Assembly (NCBI RefSeq): GCF_003063295.1
Contig: NZ_MUXF01000001.1
Span: 186,001-250,000 of the forward strand
Source of the DNA: Arcobacter lacus
GTDB lineage: Bacteria > Campylobacterota > Campylobacteria > Campylobacterales > Arcobacteraceae
Length of the DNA: 64,000 nt
Direction of reading: 5' to 3'
Position numbers and translations under genes: made by a program. The notes under the pieces are model-generated. The model had not been told where the DNA came from. It did not search any database and saw only the letters and a list, made by a program, of their open reading frames with translations. Shown piece by piece: positions 18,516-37,347 of the stretch (position 1 is its first letter; the number at the start of each line of letters is the position of its first letter).

Positions 18516-18531
18516 TTAATTTATTTGCAAA

Positions 18532-18564: not shown

Positions 18565-18590
18565 TGCCCTAAATTTTACAAAGGCAAAAA

Positions 18591-18845: not shown

Positions 18846-18850
18846 ATTTT

Positions 18851-20620
18851 ATGGAATTACAATCGTTAATTTACCTATTTGGAACTATAACTTTTGCAAT
18901 TTATGTTGGTCTTGCGTTGTGGACGAAAGCTAGTTCAACAAAAGATTTTTATATTGCAAACAATAAAGTTCATCCAATTTTTATTGGTGTTTCTATCGCA
19001 ACAGAGTGGATTGGAGCAGCTTCATTTATATCAATTGCAGGAACAATTTCATATTTAGGATACAATGGAACACCTTATATACTTGGATTTACAGGTGGAT
19101 TTGTTTTACTTACCCTTTTAATAGTTCCCTATTTGAGAAAGTTTGGAAAATTTACAATTCCTGATTTTATTGCTCAAAGATATTACTCAAATAAAGCTAG
19201 ATTACTTACAATTATTATAATTGTTTTAGCCTCATTTATTTATATTTCAGCACAAATGAAAGGTTTAGGAATAATTTTTTCAAGATTTTTTCAAGTAGAT
19301 ATGTACATTGGTTTATTGAGTGCTATTGGTATTTTATTTTTATATGCAATTTTTACGGGTATGAGAACAAACAATTATACACAAATAGCTCAATATATTA
19401 TTATACTTTTTGCATATACATTTTGTGCAATATTTTTATCATTGCAATTAACTAACAGCTTCTTACCTCAATTAGCAATATTTTCACCTATAAACTTTGA
19501 TTTTATTACTCCTCTTCAAACAATAAAAGAAGGAACACCTTTTTTAATTGCTTTAGATAAAATATTAGTAGATTTTGGATTTGATAGTTACTCTAAATCT
19601 CTTGATTTAATAAATGTATTTATGATAACTATGGCTTTAATGTTAGGTACAGCAACTCTTCCTCATTTATTAATAAAGTTTTTTACACTTTCTACAGTAA
19701 AAGATACTAGGAAATCTGCTCTTTGGGCATTAATATTTGTAGCTTTGATATTTACAACTATTTCATCAGTTGCATCTTTTTCAAAAATTAATCTTTTAAA
19801 AAATGTTCAAAATGTTGAATATGAAGCATTTATTCAAGGTGAAATAAAAAATAATGATACTTCAATAAACAATGGGAAATGGCTTCAAATATGGCAAAAT
19901 AGTGGTTTTATATCTTGGAATGACAAAAATGAAGATAAAAAAATACAAATAGATGGAACAAAAAATAATGAATTATTTATAAATCCTGATATTGTAACTT
20001 TAGTAAATGCAGAAATTGCAAACTTGCCAAACTGGATAATTGCACTTTTAATTTCTGGAGCCTTAGCAGCAATCTTAGCTACAACAACAGGTTTGCTTCT
20101 GATAATTACAACAACAATTTCTTATGACTTATGGGATGAATTTATATATAAAAACAATTATAAATATCCACATAAAAATAAAACAAAAAGATTATCAATT
20201 ATTTTAATAGTTTTTATTCTTGTTGCTTTCGCTACATTTTTTACAATACCTTTTTATTCAATTGTTCAAACTGTTACAATTTCATTTACTTTAATTGCAG
20301 CTACGATTTTTCCAGCAGTTGTGCTTGGAATATTTGATAAAAGGATGAATAAAGAAGGTGCATTCTTTGGAATTTTAACTGCTTTTATATTCACTTTTTG
20401 TTATATTGTGTACTTCTTATTTATTGATAATTCAATAGAAAATATGAGAAATTATTTGTTTGGAATCACTCCAGAAGGGATTGGAACAATTGGAGCAATA
20501 TTAAATTTTATAGTTGCATTAATTGTATCAAGATTAACACCACTTCCTCCCAAAAGTGTACAAAAATTAATTCAGAAAATTAGGATTCCTACAAATATAA
20601 AAAACAAAATAGAACTTTAA
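18851..20620 (+). CDS. Sodium:solute symporter, VC_2705 type
   Basis: A 589-residue SSS-family transporter with about 13 helices. Family marks include STKDFYIANNKVHPIFIGVSIATEWIGAASF in the N-terminal part and GTATLPHLLIKFFT in the middle. A hydrophilic insert of about 75 residues (near residues 320-390, rich in N, D and K) separates helices before GALAAILATTTGLLLIITT. VC_2705-type proteins occur with DUF4212 subunits and are regulated with acetate genes in Vibrio. Acetate or a related short carboxylate is the likely substrate, by context. It is followed 15 bases later by the DUF294 gene. Confidence 0.88.
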   Translation: MELQSLIYLFGTITFAIYVGLALWTKASSTKDFYIANNKVHPIFIGVSIATEWIGAASFISIAGTISYLGYNGTPYILGFTGGFVLLTLLIVPYLRKFGKFTIPDFIAQRYYSNKARLLTIIIIVLASFIYISAQMKGLGIIFSRFFQVDMYIGLLSAIGILFLYAIFTGMRTNNYTQIAQYIIILFAYTFCAIFLSLQLTNSFLPQLAIFSPINFDFITPLQTIKEGTPFLIALDKILVDFGFDSYSKSLDLINVFMITMALMLGTATLPHLLIKFFTLSTVKDTRKSALWALIFVALIFTTISSVASFSKINLLKNVQNVEYEAFIQGEIKNNDTSINNGKWLQIWQNSGFISWNDKNEDKKIQIDGTKNNELFINPDIVTLVNAEIANLPNWIIALLISGALAAILATTTGLLLIITTTISYDLWDEFIYKNNYKYPHKNKTKRLSIILIVFILVAFATFFTIPFYSIVQTVTISFTLIAATIFPAVVLGIFDKRMNKEGAFFGILTAFIFTFCYIVYFLFIDNSIENMRNYLFGITPEGIGTIGAILNFIVALIVSRLTPLPPKSVQKLIQKIRIPTNIKNKIEL

Positions 20621-20635
20621 AAAAGAAGGTATAAA

Positions 20636-22456
20636 ATGAGCATACAAGATCAAGAAAGTTTTTTATCAAACATTCATCCGTTTGAAGTTCTAACTCCAAG
20701 CCAAATGGCTATGTGTGTTCAACATATGGATATTGCATATTATCCCAAAGATACAATTTTAATCAGCCCAGAAAAAATTCCTGAACACTTTTTTATAATT
20801 ATAAAAGGTTCAGTATATGAATACTCAAATGAAAATATTGTTGTAATGGATTATCAAAATGAGGACTCTTTTGATTCAAACTCATTAATTTATGGAAAAT
20901 GTGAACATACATTTAAAGTAAATGAAGAACTTATCTGTTATGAAATAGAAAAAAAGACTTTTCTAAGTCTAATTGAAAAAAATCAAGAATTCAAAGATTT
21001 CTTTTTGAAAGATTTAGTAAATAAAATTCAAAGTTTAAAAGACAAAGAATATACTTCACAACTTTCATCTTTTATGATTGCAAAAGTTGGAGACACTTTA
21101 ATCCATGAAGCCTGTATGGTAGATGAAAATACAAAATTAATTGATGCTATAGAAAAATCTATGCAATTTAAAACTTCAACAATTATTGTAAAAAAATCTG
21201 ATGGAGAATATGGAATAATTACAGATTCTTTACTAAAAGTTAAAGTTTTATTGCAAGGAAGGGATTTGACAATTCCTGTACGTGATATTGCTATTTTTCC
21301 ACTTTTAACAATTCAAAAAGATGATTACTTGTTTGAAGCATTAACAATTTTAATAAAAAGAAATATTAAAAGAATTGGCGTTACAAATAGTAATGGTGAA
21401 ATGATTGGTATTTTAGAACAAATAGATATTCTTTCTCACTTTGCAAATCACACCTATGTTATAGAATCAAAAATAAAAAATGCGAATAAAGTTGAAGATT
21501 TAAAAATAGCTAGCAATGAATTTTTGAATATTATCAAAAGTTTACAAGCAAAAGGCGTAAAAATATATCATATTTCAAACTTAATTGGACAGTTAAATAC
21601 AAAAGTTTATCAAAAGCTTTATAGTTTAGTTCTTCCTGAAGAATTACAAAAAAATGCTTGTTTAATTGTTATGGGAAGTGAAGGAAGAAATGAACAAATT
21701 GTTAAAACTGATCAAGACAATGCTCTTGTAGTAAAAAATGGTATTGATGTTGAACAATATAGACCTTATATGCAACAATTAACTGAACATCTAATTGATT
21801 TAGGATATCCACCTTGTGATGGAAATATTATGGTTTCAAATCCTTATTGGTGCAAAACAGAAGATGAATATAAAAGTGATATTATAAAATGGCTAAATTC
21901 TCCTGATATGAAAAATTATCTTGATTTAGCAATTTTTATAGATGCTTTTGCAGTTGCAGGAGATAAAGAATTACTAATCAATTTAAAAGATTATTTATAT
22001 GGTAAAGTTCAAAATAAAGATATTTTTATGGCATATTTTGCAAAAGCTACGATTACTTTTGATACTCCAACAACATTTTCAAACTTTATGGCAAAAGATG
22101 ATTTAATTAATATAAAAAAAGCTGCAATTTTTCCAATAGTTCAAGGAATTAGAAGTTTAGCTTTAAGAGAAAAAATAAAAGAAACAACAACAATAAAAAG
22201 AATAAAAATACTTGAAGCAAAAAATATTTTAGAAAAAACTAAAGCTGCTGAATTAATAGAAGCATTTGAAATAGCAAGTACTATAAGATTGAAAAATCAA
22301 CTAGATTGTATTCAAGAAGGAATTGCTTTAACAAATGAAATAGATACAAATAATTTAGGGAAAATTGAAAGAGATTTATTAAAAGAATCTTTTAAAATTG
22401 TTGTTGAATTCAAGAAATTTATAAATTACATATTTAAACTGGATAAAATATACTAA
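20636..22456 (+). CDS. cNMP-binding / CBS-pair / DUF294 nucleotidyltransferase regulator, copy 1
   Basis: A 606-residue cytosolic protein. A cyclic-nucleotide-binding fold occupies about residues 10-130, a CBS pair about 150-275, a DUF294 nucleotidyltransferase domain about 290-430 with MGSEGRNEQIVKTDQDNAL, and the DUF294 C-terminal helical domain the rest (FPIVQGIRSLALREKIKETT). The G-S...D-x-D catalytic pattern of GlnD-like nucleotidyltransferases is intact. The family is regulatory by architecture, but target and product are not established. It lies between a symporter and a DEDDh exonuclease, overlapping the latter by one base; the same pair recurs at 27.4-29.9 kb. Confidence 0.9.
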   Translation: MSIQDQESFLSNIHPFEVLTPSQMAMCVQHMDIAYYPKDTILISPEKIPEHFFIIIKGSVYEYSNENIVVMDYQNEDSFDSNSLIYGKCEHTFKVNEELICYEIEKKTFLSLIEKNQEFKDFFLKDLVNKIQSLKDKEYTSQLSSFMIAKVGDTLIHEACMVDENTKLIDAIEKSMQFKTSTIIVKKSDGEYGIITDSLLKVKVLLQGRDLTIPVRDIAIFPLLTIQKDDYLFEALTILIKRNIKRIGVTNSNGEMIGILEQIDILSHFANHTYVIESKIKNANKVEDLKIASNEFLNIIKSLQAKGVKIYHISNLIGQLNTKVYQKLYSLVLPEELQKNACLIVMGSEGRNEQIVKTDQDNALVVKNGIDVEQYRPYMQQLTEHLIDLGYPPCDGNIMVSNPYWCKTEDEYKSDIIKWLNSPDMKNYLDLAIFIDAFAVAGDKELLINLKDYLYGKVQNKDIFMAYFAKATITFDTPTTFSNFMAKDDLINIKKAAIFPIVQGIRSLALREKIKETTTIKRIKILEAKNILEKTKAAELIEAFEIASTIRLKNQLDCIQEGIALTNEIDTNNLGKIERDLLKESFKIVVEFKKFINYIFKLDKIY

Positions 22457-23067
22457 TGCTAAAAAACTTTTTAAGAAATTGGAATAGAAAACAACTAAAA
22501 AATAAAAGATATGATTTTTTATTTGATACTCCAGCACAAAATGAATTTGTAAGTCTAGATTGTGAAACAACAGGATTAAATCCTAAAAAAGACGAAATAT
22601 TATCTATTGGAGCAGTTTTAATAAGAGATAATAAAATATTGATGAGAAAAACATTTAATATTTTTTTAAAACCTTCAAAAGATATAAATATCGAATCTAT
22701 AAAAGTGCATCACTTAAGACAAATAGATTTAGAAAATGCACTTGAACCAGAAATTGCTATTTATCAATTATTAGACTTTATTGGTTCAAGACCAATTGTT
22801 GGTTATTATATAGAATTTGATATGGCTATTATTTCTAAATATACAAAAAAATATCTTGGTATTAAACTTCCAAATGAACCAATAGAAGTCTCTGGAATAT
22901 ATTATGATAGTAGAAAATCTACAAGTAACTATGGATTTATAGATTTAAAATTTGATACTATTATGAAAAATTTAAATATACCTGTTTTAGGTAAGCATGA
23001 TGCATTAAATGATGCTATTATGACTTCTATGATCTTTCTAAAATTAAAACAATTTATAAAACAATAA
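22456..23067 (+). CDS. DEDDh 3'-5' exonuclease (DnaQ-like), copy 1
   Basis: A 203-residue exonuclease of the polymerase III epsilon superfamily. The DEDDh residues are all visible: D and E in SLDCETTGLNPKKDE, D in GYYIEFDMAII, and H and D in GKHDALNDAIMTS. It has no polymerase or clamp-binding partner nearby and instead overlaps the DUF294 gene by one base (TAATG), so translation is coupled. In many proteobacteria a DEDDh protein pairs with DUF294 and an acetate-type symporter; the substrate may be an oligonucleotide or nucleotide adduct rather than chromosomal DNA, which is speculation. Confidence 0.9.
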   Translation: MLKNFLRNWNRKQLKNKRYDFLFDTPAQNEFVSLDCETTGLNPKKDEILSIGAVLIRDNKILMRKTFNIFLKPSKDINIESIKVHHLRQIDLENALEPEIAIYQLLDFIGSRPIVGYYIEFDMAIISKYTKKYLGIKLPNEPIEVSGIYYDSRKSTSNYGFIDLKFDTIMKNLNIPVLGKHDALNDAIMTSMIFLKLKQFIKQ

Positions 23068-23145: not shown

Positions 23146-23178
23146 TGCTATGCTTTTGCAACTAAAATATTTTACTAT
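23146..23178 (+). promoter_or_regulatory. Direct-repeat operator and -10 box, actP operon 1
   Basis: TGCTAT (23146-23151), five bases, TGCAAC (23157-23162), ten bases, TACTAT (23173-23178). The second half-site and the -10 box are weaker than at the other two sites but spacing is identical to the base. Confidence 0.5.
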
Positions 23179-23206
23179 TTCAATGAATCTTATTTTAGGA
23201 GAAAAA

Positions 23207-23524
23207 ATGGATAACAAATTAGTAGAAAGGATTAAAGCTAATCCTAAATACCATGAACTTGTTTCAAAAAGAAGTTCTTTTGCTGTTAAACTAGCAGTTT
23301 TCATGTTAGTAATTTACTATGGTTTCGTTTTAACTATTGCATTTGACAAAGAGTTTTTTGCAACAAAAGTTTCAGCTGATAGTGTTATGACTGTTGCTTT
23401 CCCGATTGCAACTGTAATCATTATAATTGCATTTATTTCAACACTTATTTATGTTGTTAAAGCAAATGGTGAGTTTGAAAGCTTAACTAATGATATCAAA
23501 AATGATGTAAAGGATATTTTATAA
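23207..23524 (+). CDS. DUF485 membrane protein, ActP partner, copy 1
   Basis: A 105-residue protein with two hydrophobic helices (about 25-45 and 62-84) and a charged C-terminus. [20 protein letters not shown] is the DUF485 signature; E. coli YjcH, encoded next to actP, is the best-known member. The chosen ATG at 23207 has AGGAG five to six bases upstream; the longer open frame upstream lacks a ribosome site. Its stop overlaps the actP ATG by one base. Confidence 0.92.
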
Positions 23525-25161
23525 TGTTAAAAATACTTACTTTATTAGGTTTATCTTCATTAGCACTATTTGCGGCTGATGGTGAAAGTAGTGTAAATGT
23601 AGCTGCTGTTATTATGTTCTTCGTATTTATCGCAGGTACTATGGGTATTACAAAATGGGCTGCTAGTAAAACTAAATCTGCTTCAGATTTTTATACAGCA
23701 GGTGGAGGAATAAGTGGATTCCAAAATGGTCTAGCAATTGCTGGAGATTATATGTCAGCTGCTTCATTCTTAGGTATTTCAGGAATGATTTTCTTACACG
23801 GATTTGATGGTATGATTTATGCTATTGGATTCTTAGTTGGTTGGCCAATTATCCTATTCTTAATGGCTGAAAAATTAAGAAATTTAGGTAAATTCAACTT
23901 TACAGATATTGCTGCATATAGACTAGATGAGCAAAAAATCAGAATTTTAGCTGCATTTGGTTCTTTAACAGTTGTAACTTTCTATTTAATTGCACAAATG
24001 GTTGGAGCTGGAAAACTAATTGAAGTTTTATTCCATATTCCATATGGTTGGGCTGTTATTTTAGTTGGAGCATTAATGATTGTTTATGTAACATTTGGTG
24101 GAATGCTTGCTACTACTTGGGTACAAATTATTAAAGCTGTATTACTTCTATCTGGAGTTACATTTATTGCAATAATGGTTCTTTCTCATTATGGTTTCTC
24201 GTTTACAAATTTAGCAACAGAAGCTGTTAATGTTCATACTAAAGGTGCAGATATTTTAAAACCAGGACCTTTCGTTAAAGATCCAATCTCAGCTATTTCT
24301 TTAGGGTTAGCATTAATGTTAGGAACTGCAGGATTACCACACATTTTAATGAGATTCTTTACAGTTGGAAATGCAAAAGAAGCTAGAAAATCTGTTGTTT
24401 ATGCAACTGGATTTATTGGTTATTTCTACTTAATTATTGGTGTTGTTGGTTTAGGTGCTATCGTTTTCTTAAATAGTCCAGAGGGTGCTATATTCTTTGA
24501 ATCTACTGGTAAATTAATCGGTGGAAATAATATGGCTGCTGTTCACTTATCTGAAGCTGTTGGTGGTTCAATCTTCTTAGGATTTATTGCAGCTGTTTCA
24601 TTTGCTACAATTTTAGCGGTTGTGGCAGGACTTACATTAGCTGCTTCTAACTCTATTGCACATGATTTATATGCAATCGTTATTAGAAAAGGTCAAGCAA
24701 CAGATGAAGAAGAAATGAAAGTTTCAAAAAGAACAGTTATTGTAATTGGTATAGTTGCTATTCTTTTAGGATTTGCATTTGAAAACCAAAATATTGCATT
24801 CATGGTTGGTTTAGCATTTGCTATTGCAGCATCAGCTAACTTCCCTATATTGTTCTTATCAATTTATTGGTCTAAACTTACAACAAGAGGTGCATTCATT
24901 GGTGGATTTATCGGTCTATTAACTGCAGTTATTCTAGTTGTTTTAAGTAAAACTGTATGGGTTGATATCTTTGGATTTGAAAGTGCTATTTTCCCTTATA
25001 CTCAACCTGCATTATTCTCTATAGTTGCAGCATTTGTTGGTATTTGGTTCTTCTCTATCACTGATAGCTCAGCTAGAGCAGAAGAAGATAAATCTGGATT
25101 CGAAGCTCAACAAATTAGAGCAGAAACTGGAATTGGTGCTGATGGAGCTGTTTCACACTAA
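23524..25161 (+). CDS. actP: Cation/acetate symporter ActP, copy 1
   Basis: A 545-residue SSS transporter. A cleavable-looking leader ([18 protein letters not shown]) precedes about 13 helices with [52 protein letters not shown] and [16 protein letters not shown], all hallmarks of ActP (E. coli 549 residues). It imports acetate and similar short carboxylates with sodium. It is co-translated with DUF485 and followed by a strong terminator, so this is a two-gene unit. A close paralogue with its own DUF485 gene starts 540 bases further on. Confidence 0.93.
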
Positions 25162-25388: not shown

Positions 25389-25703
25389 ATGAATGAAAAA
25401 TTAATCGAAAGGATTGAATCTAACCCGAAATATATTGAGTTAGTTTCAAAAAGAAATAATCTAGCACTCAAACTTGGTTTTTTTGTGTTAATAATGTTTT
25501 ATGGTTATATATCAATCGTTGCATTTGACAAAGAGTTATTTGCTACAAAAATTGGAGATGGTGTAACAACTATAGCTATTCCTATTGCTTTTGCAATATT
25601 AATAATAAGTTTTTTAACAACTCTAATTTATGTAAAAAAAGCAAATACAGAATTTGAAGATTTAACAAATCAAATTAAAAAAGATGTAAAGGATTTATTA
25701 TAA
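25389..25703 (+). CDS. DUF485 membrane protein, ActP partner, copy 2
   Basis: A 104-residue paralogue of the DUF485 protein at 23207 (shared ERIxxNPKYxELVSKR opening, [13 protein letters not shown] loop and two helices). AAGGAG precedes the ATG. It overlaps actP copy 2 by one base. The 227 bases upstream contain no copy of the TGCTAT direct repeat; a TATAAT at 25337-25342 could be its -10 box, so this unit may be regulated differently from copy 1. Confidence 0.92.
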
Positions 25704-27370
25704 TGTTAAAAGTTTTAGCACTACTATCTATATTTGTTATATCAGTTTTTGCAGCTGGTGATGCAACTTTTGAGGGGAAAAGAGATTTAAATATTCCTGC
25801 AATTATTATGTTTTTTGTATTTATTGCTGGAACTTTAGGAATTACTTATTGGGCAGCAAGAAAAACTAAATCTGCTTCAGATTTTTATACAGCTGGTGGA
25901 GGAATAAGTGGTTTCCAAAATGGTTTAGCAATCGCAGGTGATTATATGTCTGCCGCTGCATTTTTAGGAGTATCTGGACTTATTTATATGAGTGGATATG
26001 ATGGTGTTATTTATGCTGTTTCATTTTTAGTTGGTTGGCCTGTAATTTTATTTTTTATGGCTGAAAAATTAAGAAATTTAGGTAAATTTACTTTTGCAGA
26101 TATTGCTGCTTATAGATTAGGACAAAAAGAGATAAGAACTTTAGCGGCATTTGGTTCACTTTCTGTTGTTGTTTTATACTTAATTGCACAAATGGTAGGA
26201 GCAGGTAAACTTATCCAAATTTTATTTGGAATGGAATATGAATATGCTGTATTTATGGTTGGGGCGCTGATGATTATTTATGTAACATTTGGTGGAATGC
26301 TTGCAACTACTTGGGTACAAATTATCAAAGCTATTTTACTGTTATCTGGTGTTTCATTTATGGCTGTTATGATTTTATATCATTTTGACTTCTCTTTTGA
26401 GTCTTTAGCTGTTCAAGCTGTTGAACATCATAAGAATGGTGAAGCTATTTTAAAACCAGGTGGATTTTTATCAGACCCAATTTCAGCAATTTCTTTAGGG
26501 ATGGCTTTAATGCTTGGAACTGCTGGTCTTCCTCACGTTTTAATGAGATTTTTTACAGTTGGAAATGCAAAAGAAGCTAGAAAATCTGTTGTTTATGCAA
26601 CTGGATTTGTGGCATATTTTTGGATTATTATTACTATTGTTGGATTTGGAGCGATTGCTTTTTTAAATACAGCAGAAGGTGCTCAATATTTTGATGGTGC
26701 AAAAGCATATCTTGATGGTGGAAAATTATTTGGTGGAAGTAATATGGCTTCTGTTCACTTATCTCATATGTTAGGTGGAAATGCTTTCTTAGGATTTATC
26801 TCTGCGGTTGCATTTGCTACTATTTTAGCAGTTGTTTCAGGATTAACACTTGCAGGAGCAAGTGCTATTTCACATGATATTTATGCAAATGTTATAAATC
26901 CTAATGCAAGTGATGAACAAGTTGTGAAAATATCTAAAATCACAGTTATTATTGTCGGAATTGTTGGTGTTACTTTAGGTATTGCATTTGAATCACAAAA
27001 TATTGCATATATGGTTGGTCTTGCTTTTGGTATTGCAGCAAGTGCTAATTTTCCTATTTTATTTTTATCAATTTATTGGAGCCAATTAACTACAAGAGGC
27101 GCATTTATTGGTGGATTTATGGGATTAATTACTGCTGTTGTACTTGTAATTTTAGGACCAAATGTTTGGGTTCAAATTTTAGGAAATGAAAAAGCAATAT
27201 TCCCTTATGCTCACCCTGCACTATTTTCTGTAACAGTAGCATTTGTTTCTATTTGGTTTTTTTCTAAAATTGATAACTCTGAAAGAGCTTTAAAAGAAAG
27301 AGCTTTATTTAGAGGACAAAATATAAGAGCTAACACAGGTATTGGTGCAGCAGGAGCTGTTTCACATTAA
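25703..27370 (+). CDS. actP: Cation/acetate symporter ActP, copy 2
   Basis: A 555-residue paralogue of the transporter at 23524, with the same [19 protein letters not shown] and [25 protein letters not shown] blocks and a very similar C-terminus ([15 protein letters not shown]). It differs by a slightly longer loop around residues 325-345 ([17 protein letters not shown]). The pair is a tandem duplication that has diverged. A strong hairpin terminator follows, yet only 49 bases separate it from the next DUF294 gene, so the downstream genes may depend on read-through. Confidence 0.93.
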
Positions 27371-27419: not shown

Positions 27420-29261
27420 ATGAGTATCTTAGAACAAAAAACTTTTATCTCTTCAATTCATCCATTTGAGAATTTAACTGCTAACGAACTTGATGATTTT
27501 GCTGAAAATCTTGATATTGTCTATTTTAAAGAAAATGAAGTTATTCAAGCTCAAGAAAGTTCTCCTAAATTTTTATACTTTATTTTAAAAGGTTTAATAC
27601 AAGAAAAACAAGATGATGAAGTCTTAAGTGTTTATTCAAAAAATGAAATCTTTGATTCTATTTCACTGATTGAAAACTTCTCCAAAAATAGTTTTGTAAC
27701 AGCAGAAGAAACTATTTGCTACATTTTACCAAGAGAAATTTTTTTAAAGATACTTCACGAAAATATTACATTAGAAAAATACTTTTTTCAATCAATTTCT
27801 GAAAAATTAAACAACAATATCTTGCATGAAAAAAACAGAGAAATGGCAAATATCATGATTGCAAAAGTTAAAGATGCAAGAATACATAAAGCTGTTATTA
27901 TCGATACTGAAAAGACAATTTTTGAAGCTGCATCAATAATAAAAAAAGAGAAAATCCCAACTATTTTATTAAAAGATGAAAATGACGAAATGTACATAGT
28001 TACAGATTCTGATTTTAGACAAAAAGTTATTTTAAATAGAATGGACTTTGATGATAAAGTAGTAAAAATAGCTACAAAAGGTCTTATTTATATAGATGAA
28101 AATGATTTTTTATTTAATGCTCAACTTATGATGGCAAAACATGGATTAAAAAGAGTTGTAGTAAAAAATGAGAAAAATGAAATTATCGGAATACTTGATC
28201 AAATCTCTTTATCTTCATTCTTTGCTACAAATATTTTTTCTGTATCAAATCAAATAGTAAAAGCTGAAACAATCGAAGAGTTAAAAGAAGCATCTTTATC
28301 TTTTATAAAAATTATTAAATCTCTGAATGCTAAAGGTGTAAAAATCGATTTTATTTCAAGATTAATAAATCAATTAAATAAAAAACTTTTAGATAAATTG
28401 TACAGAATATTAGCACCAAAAGAGTTAGTTGAAAAATCTTGTTTAGTTGTAATGGGTAGTGAAGGAAGAGGTGAACAAATCTTAAGAACTGACCAAGATA
28501 ACGCTTTAATAATTTCAGATGATTGCACAATAAGCGATGAAGAGTTAAAAAACTTCACACAAAACTTCACAGAAACTTTGGTTGATTTTGGTTTTCCTAG
28601 ATGTGAAGGAAATATTATGATTTCAAATCCTTATTGGTGTAGAAAAATATCTGATTTTAAAGATTTAATTTTTACTTGGGTAAATGAACCAAGTGGTGAT
28701 AACTTTATGAATATTGCAATTTTTTATGATGCTCTTTGTGTATCTGGAGACATAAAAATGATAAAAGAGCTAAAAGAATATCTATTTAAAGTATCTTCTA
28801 ATTCTCAGACTTTTTACGCACATTTTGCAAAAGTAATATCAAGTTTTGATGTTCCTTTAGGATTTTTTGATGGTTTTGTTTTTAATAATAAAGATGAAAA
28901 ACACAAAGATGAAATTGATATAAAAAGAGGTGGAATATTTATTCTTGTTCAAGGAATAAGATCTTTAAGTTTAGAAAATAAAGTTTTAAATACTAACACA
29001 ATAAAAAGAATAAATAAACTTGTGGAGTTAGGTATTCTTGAAAATGAAATGGCAAGAGAATTAATCATGGCTTTTAATTTTTTATTAAATTTGAAGCTAA
29101 AATCAAATTTAGCAAAACTAGACAAAAATTTAACTATCGATAATTATATAAATCCAAATAGTTTAAATAAAATGGAAAAAGAGTTATTAAAAGATTCTTT
29201 TAAAATTATAAATAAATTAAAGAAAAATTTAGAATTTCATTTCAAGTTAAACTATGTTTAG
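27420..29261 (+). CDS. cNMP-binding / CBS-pair / DUF294 nucleotidyltransferase regulator, copy 2
   Basis: A 613-residue paralogue of the protein at 20636 with the same order: cNMP-binding fold, CBS pair, nucleotidyltransferase with MGSEGRGEQILRTDQDNAL, and DUF294 C-terminal domain with ILVQGIRSLSLENKV. The catalytic D-x-D is intact. The CBS region is more diverged than the nucleotidyltransferase core, as expected if the two copies sense different ligands. It lies downstream of actP copy 2 across a terminator and overlaps the exonuclease gene by 8 bases. Confidence 0.9.
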   Translation: MSILEQKTFISSIHPFENLTANELDDFAENLDIVYFKENEVIQAQESSPKFLYFILKGLIQEKQDDEVLSVYSKNEIFDSISLIENFSKNSFVTAEETICYILPREIFLKILHENITLEKYFFQSISEKLNNNILHEKNREMANIMIAKVKDARIHKAVIIDTEKTIFEAASIIKKEKIPTILLKDENDEMYIVTDSDFRQKVILNRMDFDDKVVKIATKGLIYIDENDFLFNAQLMMAKHGLKRVVVKNEKNEIIGILDQISLSSFFATNIFSVSNQIVKAETIEELKEASLSFIKIIKSLNAKGVKIDFISRLINQLNKKLLDKLYRILAPKELVEKSCLVVMGSEGRGEQILRTDQDNALIISDDCTISDEELKNFTQNFTETLVDFGFPRCEGNIMISNPYWCRKISDFKDLIFTWVNEPSGDNFMNIAIFYDALCVSGDIKMIKELKEYLFKVSSNSQTFYAHFAKVISSFDVPLGFFDGFVFNNKDEKHKDEIDIKRGGIFILVQGIRSLSLENKVLNTNTIKRINKLVELGILENEMARELIMAFNFLLNLKLKSNLAKLDKNLTIDNYINPNSLNKMEKELLKDSFKIINKLKKNLEFHFKLNYV

Positions 29262-29865
29262 AAATATAAAAAATTATTTTAATAAAAAAAATCTAAGAGA
29301 TAAAAAATATTTATATCTCTTTGAAGATTCACGAAAAAAGGACGAATATGTTTGTTTTGACTGCGAAACAACTGGGCTTAATCCCAAAAAGGATGATATT
29401 ATCTCCATAGGTGCAGTAATTATAAAAGATAATATGATTATTTCTAGTAAAAAATTTATTAGATATGTAAAACCAAAAACTAAACTTCAAGCAGAAGCTA
29501 TAAAAGTTCATCATATAAGAGAATGTGATTTAAATAATGCAAATGATATAGATTTAGTTATTGAAGAATTTTTGGAATTTATAGGTAATAGAACTTTAGT
29601 TGGATATTTTTTAGAGTTTGATATCTCTATGATAAACAAATATCTTAAACCAAAACTTGGAATAACTCTTCCAAATAAAACTCTTGAAGTATCCGAAATT
29701 TATCACGATTATAAAATAGAGATAATTCCTCAAGGGCATATAGATTTAAGATTTAACTCAATTATGGAAGAGTTACAAATTCCAAGTCTAGGGAAACATG
29801 ATGCGTATAATGATGCATTAATGACTGCTATGATTTTTTTAAAACTAAAAAATACAGTGAAATGA
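29254..29865 (+). CDS. DEDDh 3'-5' exonuclease (DnaQ-like), copy 2
   Basis: A 203-residue paralogue of the exonuclease at 22456 with identical length. The DEDDh residues are in CFDCETTGLNPKKDD, GYFLEFDISMI and GKHDAYNDALMTA. Its start is inside the end of the DUF294 gene. Acetate kinase copy 1 follows 17 bases later on the same strand, tying the regulator/exonuclease pair to acetate activation. Confidence 0.9.
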   Translation: MFRNIKNYFNKKNLRDKKYLYLFEDSRKKDEYVCFDCETTGLNPKKDDIISIGAVIIKDNMIISSKKFIRYVKPKTKLQAEAIKVHHIRECDLNNANDIDLVIEEFLEFIGNRTLVGYFLEFDISMINKYLKPKLGITLPNKTLEVSEIYHDYKIEIIPQGHIDLRFNSIMEELQIPSLGKHDAYNDALMTAMIFLKLKNTVK

Positions 29866-29882: not shown

Positions 29883-31073
29883 ATGTTAGTATTTGTATTA
29901 AATGCAGGTTCATCCTCATTAAAATATCAATTAATAAATGCAAAAAATGGTGAATTAAAAGCAAGTGGTATAGTTGAAAGAATTGGAATTGATGGTATTT
30001 TAAAACAAATAGTTAGTGAAAATAGAAAATTAACAATTGAAGCCTGTATACCAACACATAAAGAAGCAATTGAACTTATTTTAGAAACTTTAACACACGA
30101 TGATACAAAAATAATTAATTCTATTGATGAAATTCAAGCAATAGGACATAGAGTTGCCCATGGTGGAGAATATTTTAAAAAATCAACTCTTGTTACAGAA
30201 AAAGTTATAAAAAAAATTGAAGAGCTAATTCCTTTAGCTCCATTACATAATCCTGCTAACATCTTAGGAATGAAGATTTGTATGCAGTTACTTCCAAAAG
30301 TTCCAAATGTAGCTGTATTTGATACTGCATTTCATCAAACAATGCCAGAAGTTCACTTCTTATTTCCCGTACCTCATGAAGATTATACTGAACATCATTT
30401 AAGAAAATATGGATTTCATGGAACAAGCCACTTTTTTGTTTCTCAACAAGCTATAAAGCTTTTAGGAAATAAAAAAGATTCAAAAATCATAGTTTGTCAT
30501 TTAGGAAATGGTTCTTCTGTTTGTGCTGTAAGAGATGGAAAATCAATTAATACTTCTATGGGATTAACTCCACTTGGAGGTTTAATGATGGGAACAAGAA
30601 GTGGTGATATAGATCCAGGAATTATTCCATATTTAATGGATAAAAAAGGTATGAATACTCATCAAATCATCGATTATTTAAATAAAAAATCAGGAATTTT
30701 AGGAGTTTCTGGTATTAGTTCAGATTTAAGAGAAATTATAAGTGCAGCAAATGATGGAGATCAAAGAGCACAAGTTACAATAGATATGATGTGTAATAGA
30801 GTAAAAAAATATGTATGTTCTTATGCTGGATTACTTGGAGGAGTTGATGCTATTTGTTTTACTGCTGGAATTGGAGAAAATTCTGACATAGTAAGAGAAA
30901 AAGTCTGTCATAACTTAGAGTTTATGGGAATAGAAATTGATAAAGAAAAAAATCAATTAAAAAATCACCAAACTAGAGAAATTAGTAAAAATAATTCAAA
31001 AACAAAAATTTTTGTTATCCCTACAAATGAAGAGTTAGTAATCGCACAAGATACTTTTAATCTTGTAAAATAA
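29883..31073 (+). CDS. ackA: Acetate kinase, copy 1
   Basis: A 396-residue enzyme that interconverts acetate plus ATP and acetyl phosphate. Active-site blocks are present: N7 in VLNAGSSSLKYQL, GHRVAHGGEYF, FDTAFHQTMP, RKYGFHGTSH, VCHLGNGSSVCAV, GTRSGDIDPG and the C-terminal VIPTNEEL glutamate. It is in an apparent operon with actP copy 2, DUF294 copy 2 and exonuclease copy 2. It is a close paralogue of copy 2 (32174), the two sharing nearly the same first 60 bases. One of three ackA genes within 6 kb. Confidence 0.95.
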   Translation: MLVFVLNAGSSSLKYQLINAKNGELKASGIVERIGIDGILKQIVSENRKLTIEACIPTHKEAIELILETLTHDDTKIINSIDEIQAIGHRVAHGGEYFKKSTLVTEKVIKKIEELIPLAPLHNPANILGMKICMQLLPKVPNVAVFDTAFHQTMPEVHFLFPVPHEDYTEHHLRKYGFHGTSHFFVSQQAIKLLGNKKDSKIIVCHLGNGSSVCAVRDGKSINTSMGLTPLGGLMMGTRSGDIDPGIIPYLMDKKGMNTHQIIDYLNKKSGILGVSGISSDLREIISAANDGDQRAQVTIDMMCNRVKKYVCSYAGLLGGVDAICFTAGIGENSDIVREKVCHNLEFMGIEIDKEKNQLKNHQTREISKNNSKTKIFVIPTNEELVIAQDTFNLVK

Positions 31074-31132
31074 TTTTTTTTATGTGTTATAATATGAAGT
31101 AGTTGTAATCTATAATATTTAAGAGTACTTTT

Positions 31133-32071
31133 ATGAATTTATATTTAAAAAATGAACAAAACCTACTTCGTATCTCTATATTTAGCACAATATTACTTGC
31201 AGGTATTGGAATAATATTTGGTTTACTTGCAAGATCTTCAACAATAATTTTTGATAGTATTTATGCAATGATAGATGCAGTAATGACAACTCTTGCTTTA
31301 ATTGTAGCAAGATTAATTACTTCATCTACTTCTAAAGATTTTATTCATAATAAACTGGAAAAACATTTTACTATGGGCTTTTGGCACCTTGAACCTATTG
31401 TTTTAGGAGTAAATGGTATATTACTTATTGGAGCTGCAACTTATGCTTTCATAAATGCACTTGATAGCTTCTTACATGGAGGTAGAGAAATACTATTTGG
31501 ATATGCAATAGTTATTACTTTAATATCTATTGTAGTTGAACTTAGTTTAGGAATTTTCATAAAAAAAGCAAATAAATCAATCAAATCTGAGTTTTTAACT
31601 CTTGATTCAATAAGTTGGTTAATTTCAGCTTCTATGTCTTTAGGATTTCTTTTTGCTTTTAGTTTTGGATATATTATAAAAGATACTAATTTACAGTGGA
31701 TAACTCCGTATATTGACCCTTTTATTTTAATTGTTGTTTGTATATTCATAATACCAATGCCATTAAAAACAGTAAAAAAAGCACTTTCTGACATTTTACT
31801 TGTAACTCCACTAGAATTAAAAGAACAAGTTGATAAAATAGCAGAAAATATTGTAAAAAAATATAGTTTTGATTCTTTTAGAGCCTATGTTGCTAGAGTT
31901 GGAAGAGGAAGACAAATAGAACTATATTTTATAGTCCCAAAAAGTTGGCCAGCTAAAAAACTTGAAGAGTGGGATTTATTAAGAGATGAAATCGAAAAAG
32001 AGCTAGGGAACGAAGATCCTGACCTTTGGTTGACTATTGTATTTACAACTGATTTTGAATGGGCTGAGTAG
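31133..32071 (+). CDS. Cation diffusion facilitator-type transporter
   Basis: A 312-residue protein with about six helices followed by a cytoplasmic C-terminal domain (SFRAYVARVGRGRQIELYFIVP). Helix 2 has FDSIYAMIDAVMT, giving the two aspartates of the CDF metal site. In helix 5 the usual HxxxD is not seen; the sequence reads LTLDSISWLISASMS. The family exports divalent metals by proton exchange, but with an incomplete site the substrate may differ. It is inserted between two acetate kinases without an obvious metabolic link. The start ATG has a weak ribosome site. Confidence 0.82.
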   Translation: MNLYLKNEQNLLRISIFSTILLAGIGIIFGLLARSSTIIFDSIYAMIDAVMTTLALIVARLITSSTSKDFIHNKLEKHFTMGFWHLEPIVLGVNGILLIGAATYAFINALDSFLHGGREILFGYAIVITLISIVVELSLGIFIKKANKSIKSEFLTLDSISWLISASMSLGFLFAFSFGYIIKDTNLQWITPYIDPFILIVVCIFIIPMPLKTVKKALSDILLVTPLELKEQVDKIAENIVKKYSFDSFRAYVARVGRGRQIELYFIVPKSWPAKKLEEWDLLRDEIEKELGNEDPDLWLTIVFTTDFEWAE

Positions 32072-32173
32072 TATTATATAAAAATTTTAAGTTTTAATAA
32101 GATATTATTTTAAATAATTAAATTTATTTCTTAAATCTTATTTAAGTTTAAATCAAAAATATAAGGAAAATAT

Positions 32174-33364
32174 ATGTTAGTATTTGTATTAAATGCAGGT
32201 TCATCTTCACTAAAATATCAATTAATAAATGCAAAAACACATGAATTAAAAGCAAGTGGATTAGTTGAAAGAATTGGTATAGATGGTATTTTAAAACATG
32301 AAATTGGTGAAAATAAAAAGCTAACTTTTGAAACACCTATCCCAACTCATAAAGAGGCTATTGAATTAGTTTTAAGAATTTTAACAAATGATGAAACAAA
32401 AGTAATAAACTCTATTGATGAAATTCAAGCAATAGGACATAGAGTTGTTCACGGTGGAGAATATTTCAAAGGTTCAATAATTGTTGATGATGACGTTCTT
32501 AGCAAAATTGAAGAACTAATTCCTTTAGCTCCTTTACATAATCCAGCTCACCTTTTAGGAATTAAAATTTGTATGCAATTACTTCCAAAAGTTCCAAATG
32601 TTACAACATTTGATACAGCATTTCACCAAACAATGCCAATTGAAAACTTCTTATATGCTGTACCTTATGGTGATTATACAGAACATCATTTAAGAAAATA
32701 TGGATTCCATGGAACAAGTCATTACTACGTTTCAAACGAAGCTGTAAAACTTTTAAATAAAAAAGATTCAAAAATTATCGTTTGTCACTTAGGAAATGGT
32801 TCTTCTGTTTGTGCAGTAAGAGATGGAAAATCTGTTAATACTTCTATGGGATTAACTCCACTTGAAGGTTTAGTAATGGGTACAAGATGTGGAGATATCG
32901 ATGCTAGTGTTATTCCATACTTAATGGAGAAAAAATCTTTAAACACTCACCAAATTATTGATTATTTAAATAAAAAATCAGGAATTTTAGGAGTTTCTGG
33001 TATTAGTTCAGATTTAAGAGAAGTTATAAAAGCTGCAAACGATGGAGATAATAGATCAAAAATAGCTATTATTATGTTATGTGATAGAATCAAAAAATAT
33101 CTTTGTTCTTATGCTGGAATAATGCATGGTGTTGACGCTATTTGTTTCACTGCTGGAATTGGTGAAAACTCTGACTTAATAAGAGAAAAAGTTTGTGAAG
33201 GTTTAGAATTCATGGGTATCGAACTAGATATTGAAAAAAATAAAGTTAGAGAAAAAGGTATTAGAGAAATAAATACAAAATCATCAAAAACTAAAATTTT
33301 TGTAATTCCTACAAATGAAGAGTTAGTAATCGCTCAAGATACTTATAGACTTGTAAAAAAATAG
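32174..33364 (+). CDS. ackA: Acetate kinase, copy 2
   Basis: A 396-residue paralogue close to copy 1. It keeps N7, GHRVVHGGEYF, FDTAFHQTMP, RKYGFHGTSH, CHLGNGSSVC and VIPTNEEL. Around the active-site arginine it differs from copy 1: GTRCGDIDASV replaces GTRSGDIDPGI. It stands alone with AAGGAAA before its ATG; no terminator or TGCTAT repeat was seen upstream. Function as acetate or propionate kinase is likely, but which acyl group each paralogue prefers cannot be read from sequence. Confidence 0.94.
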   Translation: MLVFVLNAGSSSLKYQLINAKTHELKASGLVERIGIDGILKHEIGENKKLTFETPIPTHKEAIELVLRILTNDETKVINSIDEIQAIGHRVVHGGEYFKGSIIVDDDVLSKIEELIPLAPLHNPAHLLGIKICMQLLPKVPNVTTFDTAFHQTMPIENFLYAVPYGDYTEHHLRKYGFHGTSHYYVSNEAVKLLNKKDSKIIVCHLGNGSSVCAVRDGKSVNTSMGLTPLEGLVMGTRCGDIDASVIPYLMEKKSLNTHQIIDYLNKKSGILGVSGISSDLREVIKAANDGDNRSKIAIIMLCDRIKKYLCSYAGIMHGVDAICFTAGIGENSDLIREKVCEGLEFMGIELDIEKNKVREKGIREINTKSSKTKIFVIPTNEELVIAQDTYRLVKK

Positions 33365-33534
33365 TTCAAAGTGTTACAAATAATAAAAATTTAAAAAATT
33401 GAGTATTATGTATAATTTTTGTACATAATACCATTTTTACTTACATTTTTAAAATACAAAAGCTTTATTTTGCTACTTTAAAAAAAATCCATCTTCATAA
33501 ATCATATATTTTTTTCTAATTTACCATAATTTTT

Positions 33535-33567
33535 TGCTATACAAATGCTATGTTTTTCAATTATAAT
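33535..33567 (+). promoter_or_regulatory. Direct-repeat operator and -10 box, pta-ackA operon
   Basis: TGCTAT (33535-33540), five bases, TGCTAT (33546-33551), ten bases, TATAAT (33562-33567). It is identical in both half-sites and all spacings to the site upstream of the DUF4212/symporter operon, 15 kb away. Confidence 0.65.
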
Positions 33568-33605
33568 CCTCTTCGAAAGTTTAAATTGGAAAGGATAACT
33601 TATAA

Positions 33606-34601
33606 ATGGGTTTAATTGAAACTATTAAAGAAAAAGCAAAATTAAAATTAAGAACTATCGTTCTTCCTGAACCGGAAGATGAAAGAGTTTTAAAAGCTAC
33701 TGAGCAAGTTTTAAAAGATAAAACTGCAAACGTTGTTTTAATTGGAAATGCTGATACTATAAAAGCAGATGCTGCTAAACATGGTGCAAATATTGATGGA
33801 GCAACAATAGTTGATCCAAAAAAATTTGATAATATCAATAAATATATTGATGAGTTAGTTGAATTAAGAAAAAATAAAAACCTTTCAAGAGATGAAGCAA
33901 CTGAAATTATGTTAAATGAACCAAGATTTTTTGGTTGTATGATGGTAAGACTTGGTGATGCTGATGGTTTAGTTGCGGGTTCAAATTCTCCAACAGCTGA
34001 TGTATTAAAAGCTGCTATTCAAGTTATCAAAACGGCACCTGGAATAAATACTGTTTCATCTACATTCATTATGGAAACAGCTGATGGTAAATTTGGAGAT
34101 AATGGATTAATTTTATTTGCAGATTGTGCTGTTATTCCAGAACCAAATGCAGAACAATTAGCTGATATTGCTTGTGCTACTGCTGCTACTGCTGCTAGTG
34201 TTGTTGGATTAGATCCAAGAGTTGCTATGTTATCTTTTTCTACAAAAGGAAGTGCTGCACACCCACTAGTAGATAAAGTACAATTTGCTTGTGATATTTT
34301 AAATGAAAGAAATGTTAATTTCTCATTTGATGGAGAGCTTCAAGCTGATGCTGCTATTGTTGAATCTATTGGTGCAAAAAAAGCTCCTGGTTCAAAAGTT
34401 GCAGGAAAAGCAAATATTTTAGTATTCCCTGATTTACAATCTGGAAATATTGGATATAAACTTGTTCAAAGATTTGCAGGAGCAGAAGCTCATGGACCAA
34501 TTGTACAAGGATTAAATAAACCTGTAAACGATCTTTCAAGAGGTTGTTCGGTTGAAGATATTGCAAATTTAGTTGCAATTACTGCTACACAAATTAAATA
34601 A
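33606..34601 (+). CDS. pta: Phosphate acetyltransferase
   Basis: A 331-residue short-form Pta, linking acetyl-CoA and acetyl phosphate. TIVLPEPEDERVLKATEQVL starts the PTA_PTB fold; MVRLGDADGLVAGSNSPTADVL and VFPDLQSGNIGYKLVQRFAGAEA are conserved active-site blocks. It lacks the N-terminal regulatory domain of enterobacterial Pta. GGAAAGGAT precedes the ATG. It is followed 26 bases later by ackA copy 3, the classical pta-ackA pair, and is preceded by the shared direct-repeat promoter. Confidence 0.96.
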   Translation: MGLIETIKEKAKLKLRTIVLPEPEDERVLKATEQVLKDKTANVVLIGNADTIKADAAKHGANIDGATIVDPKKFDNINKYIDELVELRKNKNLSRDEATEIMLNEPRFFGCMMVRLGDADGLVAGSNSPTADVLKAAIQVIKTAPGINTVSSTFIMETADGKFGDNGLILFADCAVIPEPNAEQLADIACATAATAASVVGLDPRVAMLSFSTKGSAAHPLVDKVQFACDILNERNVNFSFDGELQADAAIVESIGAKKAPGSKVAGKANILVFPDLQSGNIGYKLVQRFAGAEAHGPIVQGLNKPVNDLSRGCSVEDIANLVAITATQIK

Positions 34602-34627
34602 CTATTTACTAAACTAAGGAGAGAAAA

Positions 34628-35842
34628 ATGTTAGTATTCGTTTTAAATGCGGGGAGTTCATCATTAAAATACCAATTAATGAATCCAGTTATTAAAAAAG
34701 TTCTTGCAACAGGATTATGTGAAAGAATCGGGATTGATGGTGTTTTAAAACATGAATATGGTGAAAATGGACAAAAATTAACTTTAAATGTTCCAATGCC
34801 AACTCACAAAGAAGCTATCGAAGCTGTTTTAACAACTTTAACTGCTGGTGAAGGAAAAGTTATTAATTCAATAAATGATATTGATGCAATCGGACATAGA
34901 ACAGTTCATGGTGGAGAAGAATTTTCAGGTTCAGTAATGATTACTCCAGAAGTAATTGATACTATGAAAAAATTATCACCATTAGCACCTTTACATAATC
35001 CTGCAAATATCTTAGGTATTGAAATTTGCCAACAATTAATGCCAGGGAAACCAAATGTTGGTGTATTTGATACAGCATTCCACCAAACTATGCCTGATTA
35101 TGCTTATATGTATGCTTTACCATATGAAATGTACACTAAACATGGTATTAGAAAATATGGTTTCCATGGAACAAGTCACTTTTTTGTTTCAAATGAAGCT
35201 AGAGGAATGTTAGATAAAAAATATAATACTAGAATTATTGTTTGTCACTTAGGTAATGGTTCTTCTGTTAGTGCTGTTTTAAATGGAAGATGTATTGACA
35301 CTTCTATGGGACTTACTCCTATTCAAGGTCTAATGATGGGAACAAGAAGTGGAGATGTAGGAGCAGGAGCATTACAATATATGATGAGCCAAGAAAATCT
35401 TACTATTGACCAAGCTATAGATATCATGAATAAAAAATCTGGTATTTTAGGAATTTCTGGAAAATCTTCTGATTTAAGAGAAGTTTTACAAGGTATGCAA
35501 GATGGTGATGAAAGATGTAGATTAGCAGTTGATATGGTTGCTTATAACATCAAAAAATATGTAGGTTCTTATGTTGCAGCACTTGATGGTATCGATGCTC
35601 TTTGCTTTACAGGTGGAATTGGTGAAAATGCAGCACTAATTAGAGAAAAAGTTTGTGCAGGACTTGACTCTATGGGACTTGTAATCGACCCAGTTAAAAA
35701 TAATAAAAGATCAAATGTTGCAAGAGATATTGCTACAAATGGCTCTGCTTCAAGAATCTTTGTTATTCCTACAAATGAAGAATATGTTATTGCAAATGAT
35801 ACTTATAAAATCGTTTCAGGACAAGCTAATACTTGCCAATAA
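34628..35842 (+). CDS. ackA: Acetate kinase, copy 3 (partner of pta)
   Basis: A 404-residue enzyme, the most diverged of the three ackA genes here and the one in the conserved pta-ackA arrangement, so probably the ancestral housekeeping copy. N7, GHRTVHGGEEF, FDTAFHQTMP, RKYGFHGTSH, CHLGNGSSVS and VIPTNEEYVIA are present; the loop after the arginine reads GTRSGDVGAGALQY. AAGGAGAG precedes the ATG. A terminator follows the stop. Confidence 0.96.
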   Translation: MLVFVLNAGSSSLKYQLMNPVIKKVLATGLCERIGIDGVLKHEYGENGQKLTLNVPMPTHKEAIEAVLTTLTAGEGKVINSINDIDAIGHRTVHGGEEFSGSVMITPEVIDTMKKLSPLAPLHNPANILGIEICQQLMPGKPNVGVFDTAFHQTMPDYAYMYALPYEMYTKHGIRKYGFHGTSHFFVSNEARGMLDKKYNTRIIVCHLGNGSSVSAVLNGRCIDTSMGLTPIQGLMMGTRSGDVGAGALQYMMSQENLTIDQAIDIMNKKSGILGISGKSSDLREVLQGMQDGDERCRLAVDMVAYNIKKYVGSYVAALDGIDALCFTGGIGENAALIREKVCAGLDSMGLVIDPVKNNKRSNVARDIATNGSASRIFVIPTNEEYVIANDTYKIVSGQANTCQ

Positions 35843-35843
35843 A

Positions 35844-35882
35844 TTAAAAGGTGAATTTTCTTCACCTTTTAAACTTCTTTTT
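35844..35882 (+). terminator. Terminator after pta-ackA
   Basis: TTAAAAGGTGAA (35844-35855) and its complement (35861-35872), five-base loop, T-rich tail. It begins two bases after the ackA stop. Confidence 0.85.
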
Positions 35883-36063: not shown

Positions 36064-37347
36064 ATGAAAACTTATATTAAAATATTTTTTTTACCGCTTT
36101 TAATAGTATTTACTTTTAGTGGGTGTAGTGCTAAGTTACCACAATATGAATTAAAAGAAACATATTCAGAAAAACAAGTATTAGTTTATGATAAAACTAT
36201 TAGTTTAGCTACAAAAGCATATATATCTAAAATGAAATTTTCTCCAACAAATAAAGATGAATTAGTTATGTCATTATTAGATACTTACTATCAAACACAT
36301 CATACTGACCACTTTATCGTTATGGATTTAAAAAGTGGAAAAGTAAAAAAAGACATGAAACTTGATAACAATAGATATATATATTCTAAAAGATTTACTT
36401 TTTCAGATGATGGGAAAAAACTGTATTTAAGAGATGTTTATGAAAACGGTAGCCCTAAAGATATATGTAAAAGTAATAAAGAAAAATGTCAAGAAAGTTT
36501 TAGATTATGGGCAATATATGATAAGTTTACTATATTAGACTTAGATACAGGAGAGTTATCTCCTTATTATAGTTATAACTGTAGAGAATTAATACCAAAA
36601 AATTTAAACAATGTAGAAGATGGTATAGAAGCTGATTGTTCTGTAAATAAAAGTGTTTATTTTAGAATAGACTTACTAAAAAGCAATTTTATAGATTATA
36701 AATATAAAGATGAAAAAGGATTTGGGGCTGGTATTGCTGTACTTGATAAAGATAGTTTTAAACCAAAAAAGATTATTACTGCAGATAATAAACTAGATAC
36801 AGAATTTAATGTAGAAATTATAAGCGAAGATGGACAATATGTGCTTTTTGAAAAAATTATTATGGATAGTAAAAGATATAAAACAAATAAAAAATATGTA
36901 GTATATGATTTAAAAAATGATAAAGCTATTCATAGTTTTGATGCTCCATTTCCTATAAATGGAAGAGCAGAAGCATTTATAGATAAAGATACTTTAGTTT
37001 TTATGTATAGTAGTGATTTTACTGTAATTAGAAATACTCAGTATTCCAAAAAACATTTAGGTATTATAAATCTAGCTACAAATGAAAAAAAGGTATTTTC
37101 TGATTGTGGGGGTAGTATTAATAGTGGAGGGAAATGCCTTATAACTGAGGATGTTTATAACTTAAACGATAGATATATGATGTGGAGAAATTATTCAAAT
37201 TATTATGTTTTTGATAAAAAAGATATGAAAATAGTTCAAGAGTTTAAAGGAGCAGCTAGTTTTACAGTGAGTAGAGATTTTAAAAAAGTTGCTTTTTATA
37301 CAATTAATAATGATTTATATTTATACGATATATCACAAGGAGAGTAG
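36064..37347 (+). CDS. Lipoprotein of unknown function, possible beta-propeller
   Basis: A 427-residue secreted lipoprotein: the leader MKTYIKIFFLPLLIVFTFSGC ends in the lipobox FSGC, with Cys the mature first residue. The body contains repeated short strand units of the type ISEDGQYVLFEK, FTFSDDGKKLYLRD and SRDFKKVAFYTINNDLYLYDIS, which suggest a TolB/YncE-like propeller, but I cannot count blades reliably. I do not recognise a named family. It is followed 3 bases later by a broken lipase-like gene, so it may have been part of a periplasmic effector or immunity pair (inference). Confidence 0.72.
   Translation: MKTYIKIFFLPLLIVFTFSGCSAKLPQYELKETYSEKQVLVYDKTISLATKAYISKMKFSPTNKDELVMSLLDTYYQTHHTDHFIVMDLKSGKVKKDMKLDNNRYIYSKRFTFSDDGKKLYLRDVYENGSPKDICKSNKEKCQESFRLWAIYDKFTILDLDTGELSPYYSYNCRELIPKNLNNVEDGIEADCSVNKSVYFRIDLLKSNFIDYKYKDEKGFGAGIAVLDKDSFKPKKIITADNKLDTEFNVEIISEDGQYVLFEKIIMDSKRYKTNKKYVVYDLKNDKAIHSFDAPFPINGRAEAFIDKDTLVFMYSSDFTVIRNTQYSKKHLGIINLATNEKKVFSDCGGSINSGGKCLITEDVYNLNDRYMMWRNYSNYYVFDKKDMKIVQEFKGAASFTVSRDFKKVAFYTINNDLYLYDISQGE

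Follow-up and report, generated by a model that had tools for sequence, protein, structure and literature searches.

Three AckA-family kinases beside one pta in Arcobacter lacus, one with alanine at the acyl-pocket position

Three kinase genes and one phosphotransacetylase gene

The window analyzed here is a stretch of 64,000 nucleotides from Arcobacter lacus (assembly GCF_003063295.1, contig NZ_MUXF01000001.1, positions 186,001 to 250,000). Within 6 kb it holds three genes for AckA-family kinases, all on the plus strand: ack1 (29883-31073), ack2 (32174-33364), and ack3 (34628-35842), with the phosphotransacetylase gene pta (33606-34601, plus strand) between the last two. A PF00871 profile search of the whole 2.2-Mb genome, an Aliarcobacter, gave exactly these three matches and no other AckA. 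One kinase stands apart at the acyl pocket: codon 92 of ack1 (GCC, 30156-30158, plus strand) encodes alanine where Ack2 and Ack3 have valine, a difference that points to propionate. The account given below builds on gene content, gene order, phylogeny, residue distribution, the presence of PrpB, and the lack of an Acs match, and from these the functions of Ack1, Ack2, and Ack3 are predicted.

All three genes are full-length open reading frames (ORFs; 396, 396, and 404 aa) free of internal stops. Ack1, Ack2, and Ack3 pass the cut-offs of TIGR00016 (531, 527 [526.6 before rounding], and 501 bits; cut-off 293.4) and PF00871 (523, 511, and 500 bits; cut-off 22), fall short of the propionate kinase equivalog NF009045 (424, 415, and 414 bits; cut-off 580), and lie far below the butyrate kinase model TIGR02707 (61.7, 56.2, and 77.8 bits; cut-off 289.1). 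Fifteen hallmark residues (N7, S10, S12, K14, R91, L122, H123, D148, F179, H180, N211, P232, R241, G331, and E384 in Methanosarcina AckA numbering) are kept in every copy and are invariant in 158/158 rows of the family alignment. Purifying selection is evident on ack1, with ratios of nonsynonymous to synonymous substitution (dN/dS) of 0.11 and 0.10 against two orthologues, and likewise on the ack2 orthologues. The product of pta scores 372.5 bits with TIGR00651, over cut-off, and is the sole PTA_PTB match over cut-off in the genome (PF01515 search), a second match falling under it.

The copies are real: the order ack1-CDF-ack2-pta-ack3 recurs in the one-contig genome G005, whose proteins are 93, 94, and 99% identical to Ack1, Ack2, and Ack3, which rules out an assembly artefact as their source. 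As the initial annotation had it, ack1 and ack2 are close duplicates of equal length (58/60 of the first bases shared, 78.0% protein identity), and ack3, which starts 26 bp past pta, is the diverged partner of that gene (58.1% and 60.4% protein identity to Ack1 and Ack2). The near-identical first 60 bases to which it drew attention are not special, since this is the region of the conserved phosphate motif; identity between the two genes reaches 91-97% in three further windows of 20 codons, and in five other genomes the first window stands at 82-93%. A 5' gene conversion between the two genes is thus unsupported beyond a conserved gene start. Its premise that most bacteria have one ackA was too strong, as about 45% of UniProt ACK entries, from more than 300 species, are reported to be multiples (PMC3956926).

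Alanine at residue 92

The same annotation placed the specificity marker in the loop after the active-site arginine. The loops are as it read them in the window (GDIDPG, GDIDAS, and GDVGAG), but they vary inside orthologue groups and fail to separate copies 1 and 2: the 10 ack1 orthologues have DPG (6) or DAG (4), and the 30 ack2 orthologues have DAG (29) or, in the window only, DAS. The loop was therefore dropped. Residue 92 (Ack1 numbering), which aligns with Val93 in the Methanosarcina AckA pocket, is the better marker. It is alanine in 10/10 ack1 orthologues and valine in 30/30 ack2 and 30/30 ack3 orthologues of the genus set; the equivalent residue is valine in Escherichia coli AckA and alanine in E. 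coli TdcD. Elsewhere in the GDxD loop, residue 244 is glycine in 79/79 rows of the ack3 lineage and aspartate in the remaining 79 of the 158 family rows.

For the wider distribution, 104 Arcobacteraceae genomes, the present one included, were searched, and 89 had an AckA match. The family tree drew on clusters from 77 genomes, 76 of them with complete genes, and comprised 158 AckA rows, of which 17 have alanine and 141 valine at residue 92. The 13 remaining AckA-bearing genomes (12 together with G025, whose locus is cut by a contig end and whose residue was read after the tree was built) contribute one AckA each, all with valine. Across the 89 genomes the count is thus 17/171 alanine and 154/171 valine, and nothing else. 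A broader locus sample of 71 AckA, in which distant proteins are mixed with Arcobacteraceae rows, has 13 alanine, 35 valine, and 23 leucine.

Copy number follows a simple pattern in the 76-genome set: two valine copies in 50 genomes, one alanine and two valine copies in 15, a single valine copy in 9, and one copy of each kind in 2. Because two valine copies are the commonest state, it is the third copy that is the extra. Every genome with three full copies carries exactly one alanine copy (15/15), and every genome with an alanine copy keeps a valine copy (17/17). One of the three-copy genomes, G079, has in addition a downstream piece of AckA, C-terminal and carrying a stop, that falls short of residue 92, and a fourth intact AckA there was ruled out. 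An apparent 977-aa DUF294-AckA fusion in G007 (L039:11276-14209) was rejected, its ORF reading through a run of N.

The 17 alanine rows form two clades. A tree of 82 sequences centred on the genus makes the 10 ack1 rows and the 30 ack2 rows sister clades, each with a support of 98 in the Shimodaira-Hasegawa-like approximate likelihood ratio test (SH-aLRT), and ack3 is separate. In the family tree the ack1 clade grows to 13 rows by taking in three genomes of genus g6, among them a Poseidonibacter; G117 and G115 belong to these three, and G115 carries all three copies. Either the ack1/ack2 split predates the divergence of Aliarcobacter and g6 or genes have moved between the genera. The other four alanine rows come from genus g33, where 4 of 16 genomes have the pta-ack3 cassette in duplicate. 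A single alanine clade is rejected on the family tree (approximately unbiased [AU] test, p-AU 9.9e-6), although the group was named after the tree had been seen, so the p value is indicative only. That tree splits the ack3 rows of Aliarcobacter, but their union in one clade is not rejected (p-AU 0.359), and horizontal replacement of ack3 within the genus was set aside. Among 396 sites, only residue 92 is universal in both alanine clades and absent from the valine rows; site 360 is shared in part.

Within the genus, ack1 is a minority gene, present in 10/30 Aliarcobacter. Among the 30 genomes other than the present one it occurs in 9, and ack2 and ack3 occur together in all 29 uncut loci.

Several lines of evidence suggest a link between alanine at this position and propionate. 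The PDB propionate kinase chains 1x3m (TdcD) and 7fj7 have alanine, and the acetate kinase chains 2iir, 1tuu, 1g99, and 6ioy, two of which are apparently the same enzyme, have valine. The comparison left out 3khy, also named propionate kinase; 4xh4 and 4xh5, so named as well, have valine and glycine at the pocket position, are otherwise TdcD, and look like engineered variants of it. The entry 7fj7, a "Probable propionate kinase," ranks within the top five PDB matches of Ack1. Val93 has been cited as an acetate-binding determinant (PMC4390882), and modelling of Salmonella AckA is reported to bring the additional methyl group of propionate into a short contact with Val93, which according to the authors a small adjustment can relieve (PMC3475010).

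Neisseria offers a partial test. The prp-linked kinase NMB0435 of N. meningitidis is reported with Michaelis constants (Km) of 16.3 mM for propionate and 20.8 mM for acetate, whereas for NMB1518 an affinity for propionate could not be measured; mutants in Pta are described as unable to use propionic acid (PMC4441257). The residues were read from printed translations of the gonococcal orthologues, which were identified by published primer starts: the NMB0435 type has alanine and the NMB1518 type valine. In the gonococcal prp-linked copy, residues that are conserved elsewhere have changed, and it may be degenerate. A literature search for V93A returned only an unrelated EutQ residue, and the titles listed on acetate kinase or ackA in Arcobacter and Arcobacteraceae, which are titles only and support no claim of novelty, included none on this residue pattern.

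Predicted functions and their alternatives

We favor, with reasonable though far from full confidence, a reading in which Ack1 would be a kinase able to use propionate, partnered by the shared Pta, and Ack2 and Ack3 would be acetate kinases. Its substrate side draws on the residue that Ack1 shares with the propionate kinases TdcD and 7fj7 and with the gonococcal NMB0435 orthologue. The locus would then be an Arcobacteraceae cluster for acetate uptake and activation, with ActP symporters, acetate kinases, and one Pta, built on two old AckA lineages (ack1/ack2 and the pta-linked ack3) together with a minority third copy, ack1, whose acyl pocket a single Val-to-Ala substitution would have enlarged. 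Ack2 and Ack3 would interconvert acetate and acetyl-phosphate, while Ack1 would accept propionate well enough to interconvert it with propionyl-phosphate; Ala92 is the presumed source of that capacity. Pta presumably takes propionyl-phosphate and would link it to propionyl-CoA and, through PrpB, to the methylcitrate pathway. The net direction could be activation or ATP-yielding release, as with TdcD. The extra gene would thus probably add a new fuel, propionate, rather than more acetate kinase.

Known systems supply both parallels and differences. TdcD of E. coli and Salmonella belongs to the same family and has alanine at the acyl-pocket position, but it is 43.7% identical to Ack1 and is encoded in the tdc operon. 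Because ack1 groups with Arcobacteraceae AckA, the likeness at residue 92 is convergent; and because its NF009045 score falls below cut-off, Ack1 is better said to work, as predicted, like TdcD than to be TdcD. Another parallel is NMB0435, a second AckA reported to use propionate and thought to pass it on to Pta in a system without PrpE; its gene lies in a prp cluster, whereas ack1 lies in the acetate uptake and activation cluster.

The genomic context is consistent with such a role. PrpB (methylisocitrate lyase) is present in 17/17 genomes with an alanine copy, and none of these 17 has an Acs model match at 1e-90; across the 104 family genomes PrpB occurs in 82, and the Acs curated cut-off, scored separately, is passed in only 24. 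No Aliarcobacter passes that cut-off (0/30), although all 30 carry a weaker Acs-model match of more than 200 bits, within an 842-863-aa frame in 29 genomes, and this Acs-like enzyme might activate acids. In three family members without an AckA match (G064:C2, G065:C21, and G067:C18), an Acs-like gene under the Acs cut-off lies beside PrpB and is perhaps PrpE.

A number of observations weigh against assigning propionate to Ack1. Of 30 Aliarcobacter tested, all have PrpB but only 10 have ack1, so ack1 is not needed for the methylcitrate pathway. Within the cluster the neighbouring symporters are of the acetate type, and PrpB is on another contig. Two genomes with an alanine copy (G117 and G120) have two copies only, so alanine does not always come with a third copy. 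Ack1 has further fixed differences, for example at residues 158, 161, 162, 165, and 232, and these might serve something else. Salmonella AckA, of the valine type, is reported to use propionate at about a tenth of its acetate efficiency (PMC3475010). Propionate effects in Neisseria are reported to involve both kinases, in a way that depends on the carbon source (PMC12671195), so the split between them is not absolute. Finally, neither acetate, propionate, nor the two together is reported to support growth of Arcobacter butzleri RM4018 (PMC2147049). Separately, an ackA-pta pair of A. butzleri, AB0494-AB0495, is described as responding to two extracytoplasmic function (ECF) sigma factors (PMC3445524).

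A broader proposal, which we put forward tentatively and at somewhat less than even likelihood, is that extra AckA copies of Arcobacteraceae have repeatedly become propionate kinases in two lineages, each time through one and the same pocket substitution, with selection keeping the pocket segment distinct while conversion homogenizes the rest. It draws on the four duplicated pta-ack cassettes (L141:3570-6996, L144, L156, and L157), in which the paired Pta proteins are identical at 324-325 of 325 residues and the paired AckA differ at the pocket residue in all four. Computed on DNA by codon blocks, the identity of the alanine gene to its valine sister in G082 is 100% over codons 1-80 and 58-60% over codons 81-120, then mixed; in G093 and G094 it is 90-100% and then 67-80%. 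G079 has no such block (58-88%, then 53-70%). Among the valine orthologues from the four genomes, identity over codons 81-120 is 78-93%. The pattern is consistent with gene conversion ending short of the pocket, and selection may set that boundary.

The second alanine lineage may instead owe its residue to copying, a segment of roughly codons 81-135 having passed from an ack1-type gene into the duplicated ack3. This concerns history only, is compatible with a propionate-capable Ack1, and seems to us rather doubtful. Past codon 80, three of the four cassettes show a sharp drop in identity to the sister ack3 (in G082 from 100% to 58-60%). A free tree of codons 81-135, with 91-92 omitted, places the four rows outside the ack3 group, and within this segment they show changes to common ack1 states (91 Val, 112 Ile, 113 Glu, and 131 Lys). 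However, in tests with the clades held, placement with ack3 (p-AU 0.857) and placement with ack1 (p-AU 0.701) are both accepted, and codons 136-396 put the four rows firmly in ack3. They share none of 15 other ack1-only states; none of these falls inside the segment, so this says little.

For Ack1 itself the chief competitor is a kinetic division of labor, in which three acetate kinases would split the acetate range between high affinity and high turnover and Ala92 would alter acetate affinity or rate rather than the cellular substrate. Lactococcus lactis resembles the window in having two acetate kinases, AckA1 and AckA2, encoded by neighbouring genes, and their reported split is of just this kind, in acetate affinity and turnover (PMC3956926). 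The locus holds ActP-type acetate symporters, and with Acs over cut-off in 0/30 Aliarcobacter, AckA-Pta may carry acetate at all concentrations. What such a split leaves unexplained is why the residue of known propionate kinases should appear at the same pocket position in the extra copy of two lineages, and we regard it as unlikely. Simple gene dosage, with equivalent duplicates and neutral drift at residue 92, is highly improbable: ack1 is indeed found in only 10/30 Aliarcobacter, and alanine, valine, and leucine all occur at the site in distant AckA, but in the family only valine (154/171) and alanine (17/171) are seen there, both the ack1 and the ack2 orthologues show purifying selection, and the ack1/ack2 split spans Aliarcobacter and a second genus.

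The copies thus probably differ in more than dosage. Functional divergence, which the initial annotation had preferred, is supported by residue 92 and not by the loop. Of the acyl specificities it listed, propionate is plausible for Ack1, while butyrate is excluded by the family score (56-78 bits); the annotation was right to name propionate as a possibility, though on the wrong residues. If the propionate reading of Ack1 holds, one residue would allow prediction from sequence of which Arcobacteraceae "acetate kinase" handles propionate, and the family would offer a natural experiment in repeated enzyme specialization after duplication, at the same site in two lineages and with the valine sister kept in every genome. 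Models of short-chain fatty acid metabolism would miss the difference, because TIGR00016 calls all three alike an acetate/propionate family kinase.

Gene neighbourhood

Gene order at the locus, with neighbours assigned by Pfam and NF models, starts with two pairs of a DUF485 protein and an ActP-type acetate symporter (23150-25161 and 25389-27370; NF006903, 873.4 and 868 bits, over the ActP cut-off). A cNMP-binding/CBS/DUF294 protein (27420-29261, Pfam), conserved as a neighbour among relatives, and a DnaQ-type 3'-5' exonuclease (29254-29865; NF006601, 264 bits, over cut-off, and PF00929) come next, followed by ack1, a cation-efflux (CDF) family protein (31133-32071; PF01545) that only part of the relatives have at this position, ack2, pta, and ack3; all are on the plus strand. 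The order ack-pta-ack3 behind DUF294 genes, mostly with an exonuclease between, is shared by 8 of the 12 further genera that the tree covers and was not seen in g3, g4, g5, and g36. In two relatives an AraC-type regulator (Pfam) lies on the opposite strand between ack2 and pta (L141:7578-8585 and L138:9830-10822), and other g29 and g33 genomes have similar-sized unlabelled genes in its place.

The suggestion that each kinase gene sits in a different transcriptional context holds only in part. From the exonuclease through ack1, CDF, ack2, and pta to ack3, the gaps are 17, 59, 102, 241, and 26 bp. Between 29700 and 36100, terminator-like sites on both strands number 6 (1.9 in shuffled controls), and the only one on the plus strand is a hairpin directly after ack3 (35844-35872); promoter-like matches in the same interval are not enriched (29, shuffle mean 38). 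Beyond this hairpin, at 36064-37347, lies a gene for a 427-aa protein with a lipoprotein-like start and zero Pfam matches. Ahead of the ActP genes (16289-23067), genes for a histidine kinase of the Cache type and a response regulator, for a symporter of the VC_2705 type, and for a further pair of DUF294 protein and exonuclease form what is perhaps a regulator set, and this gene set recurs with the ActP genes in many relatives.

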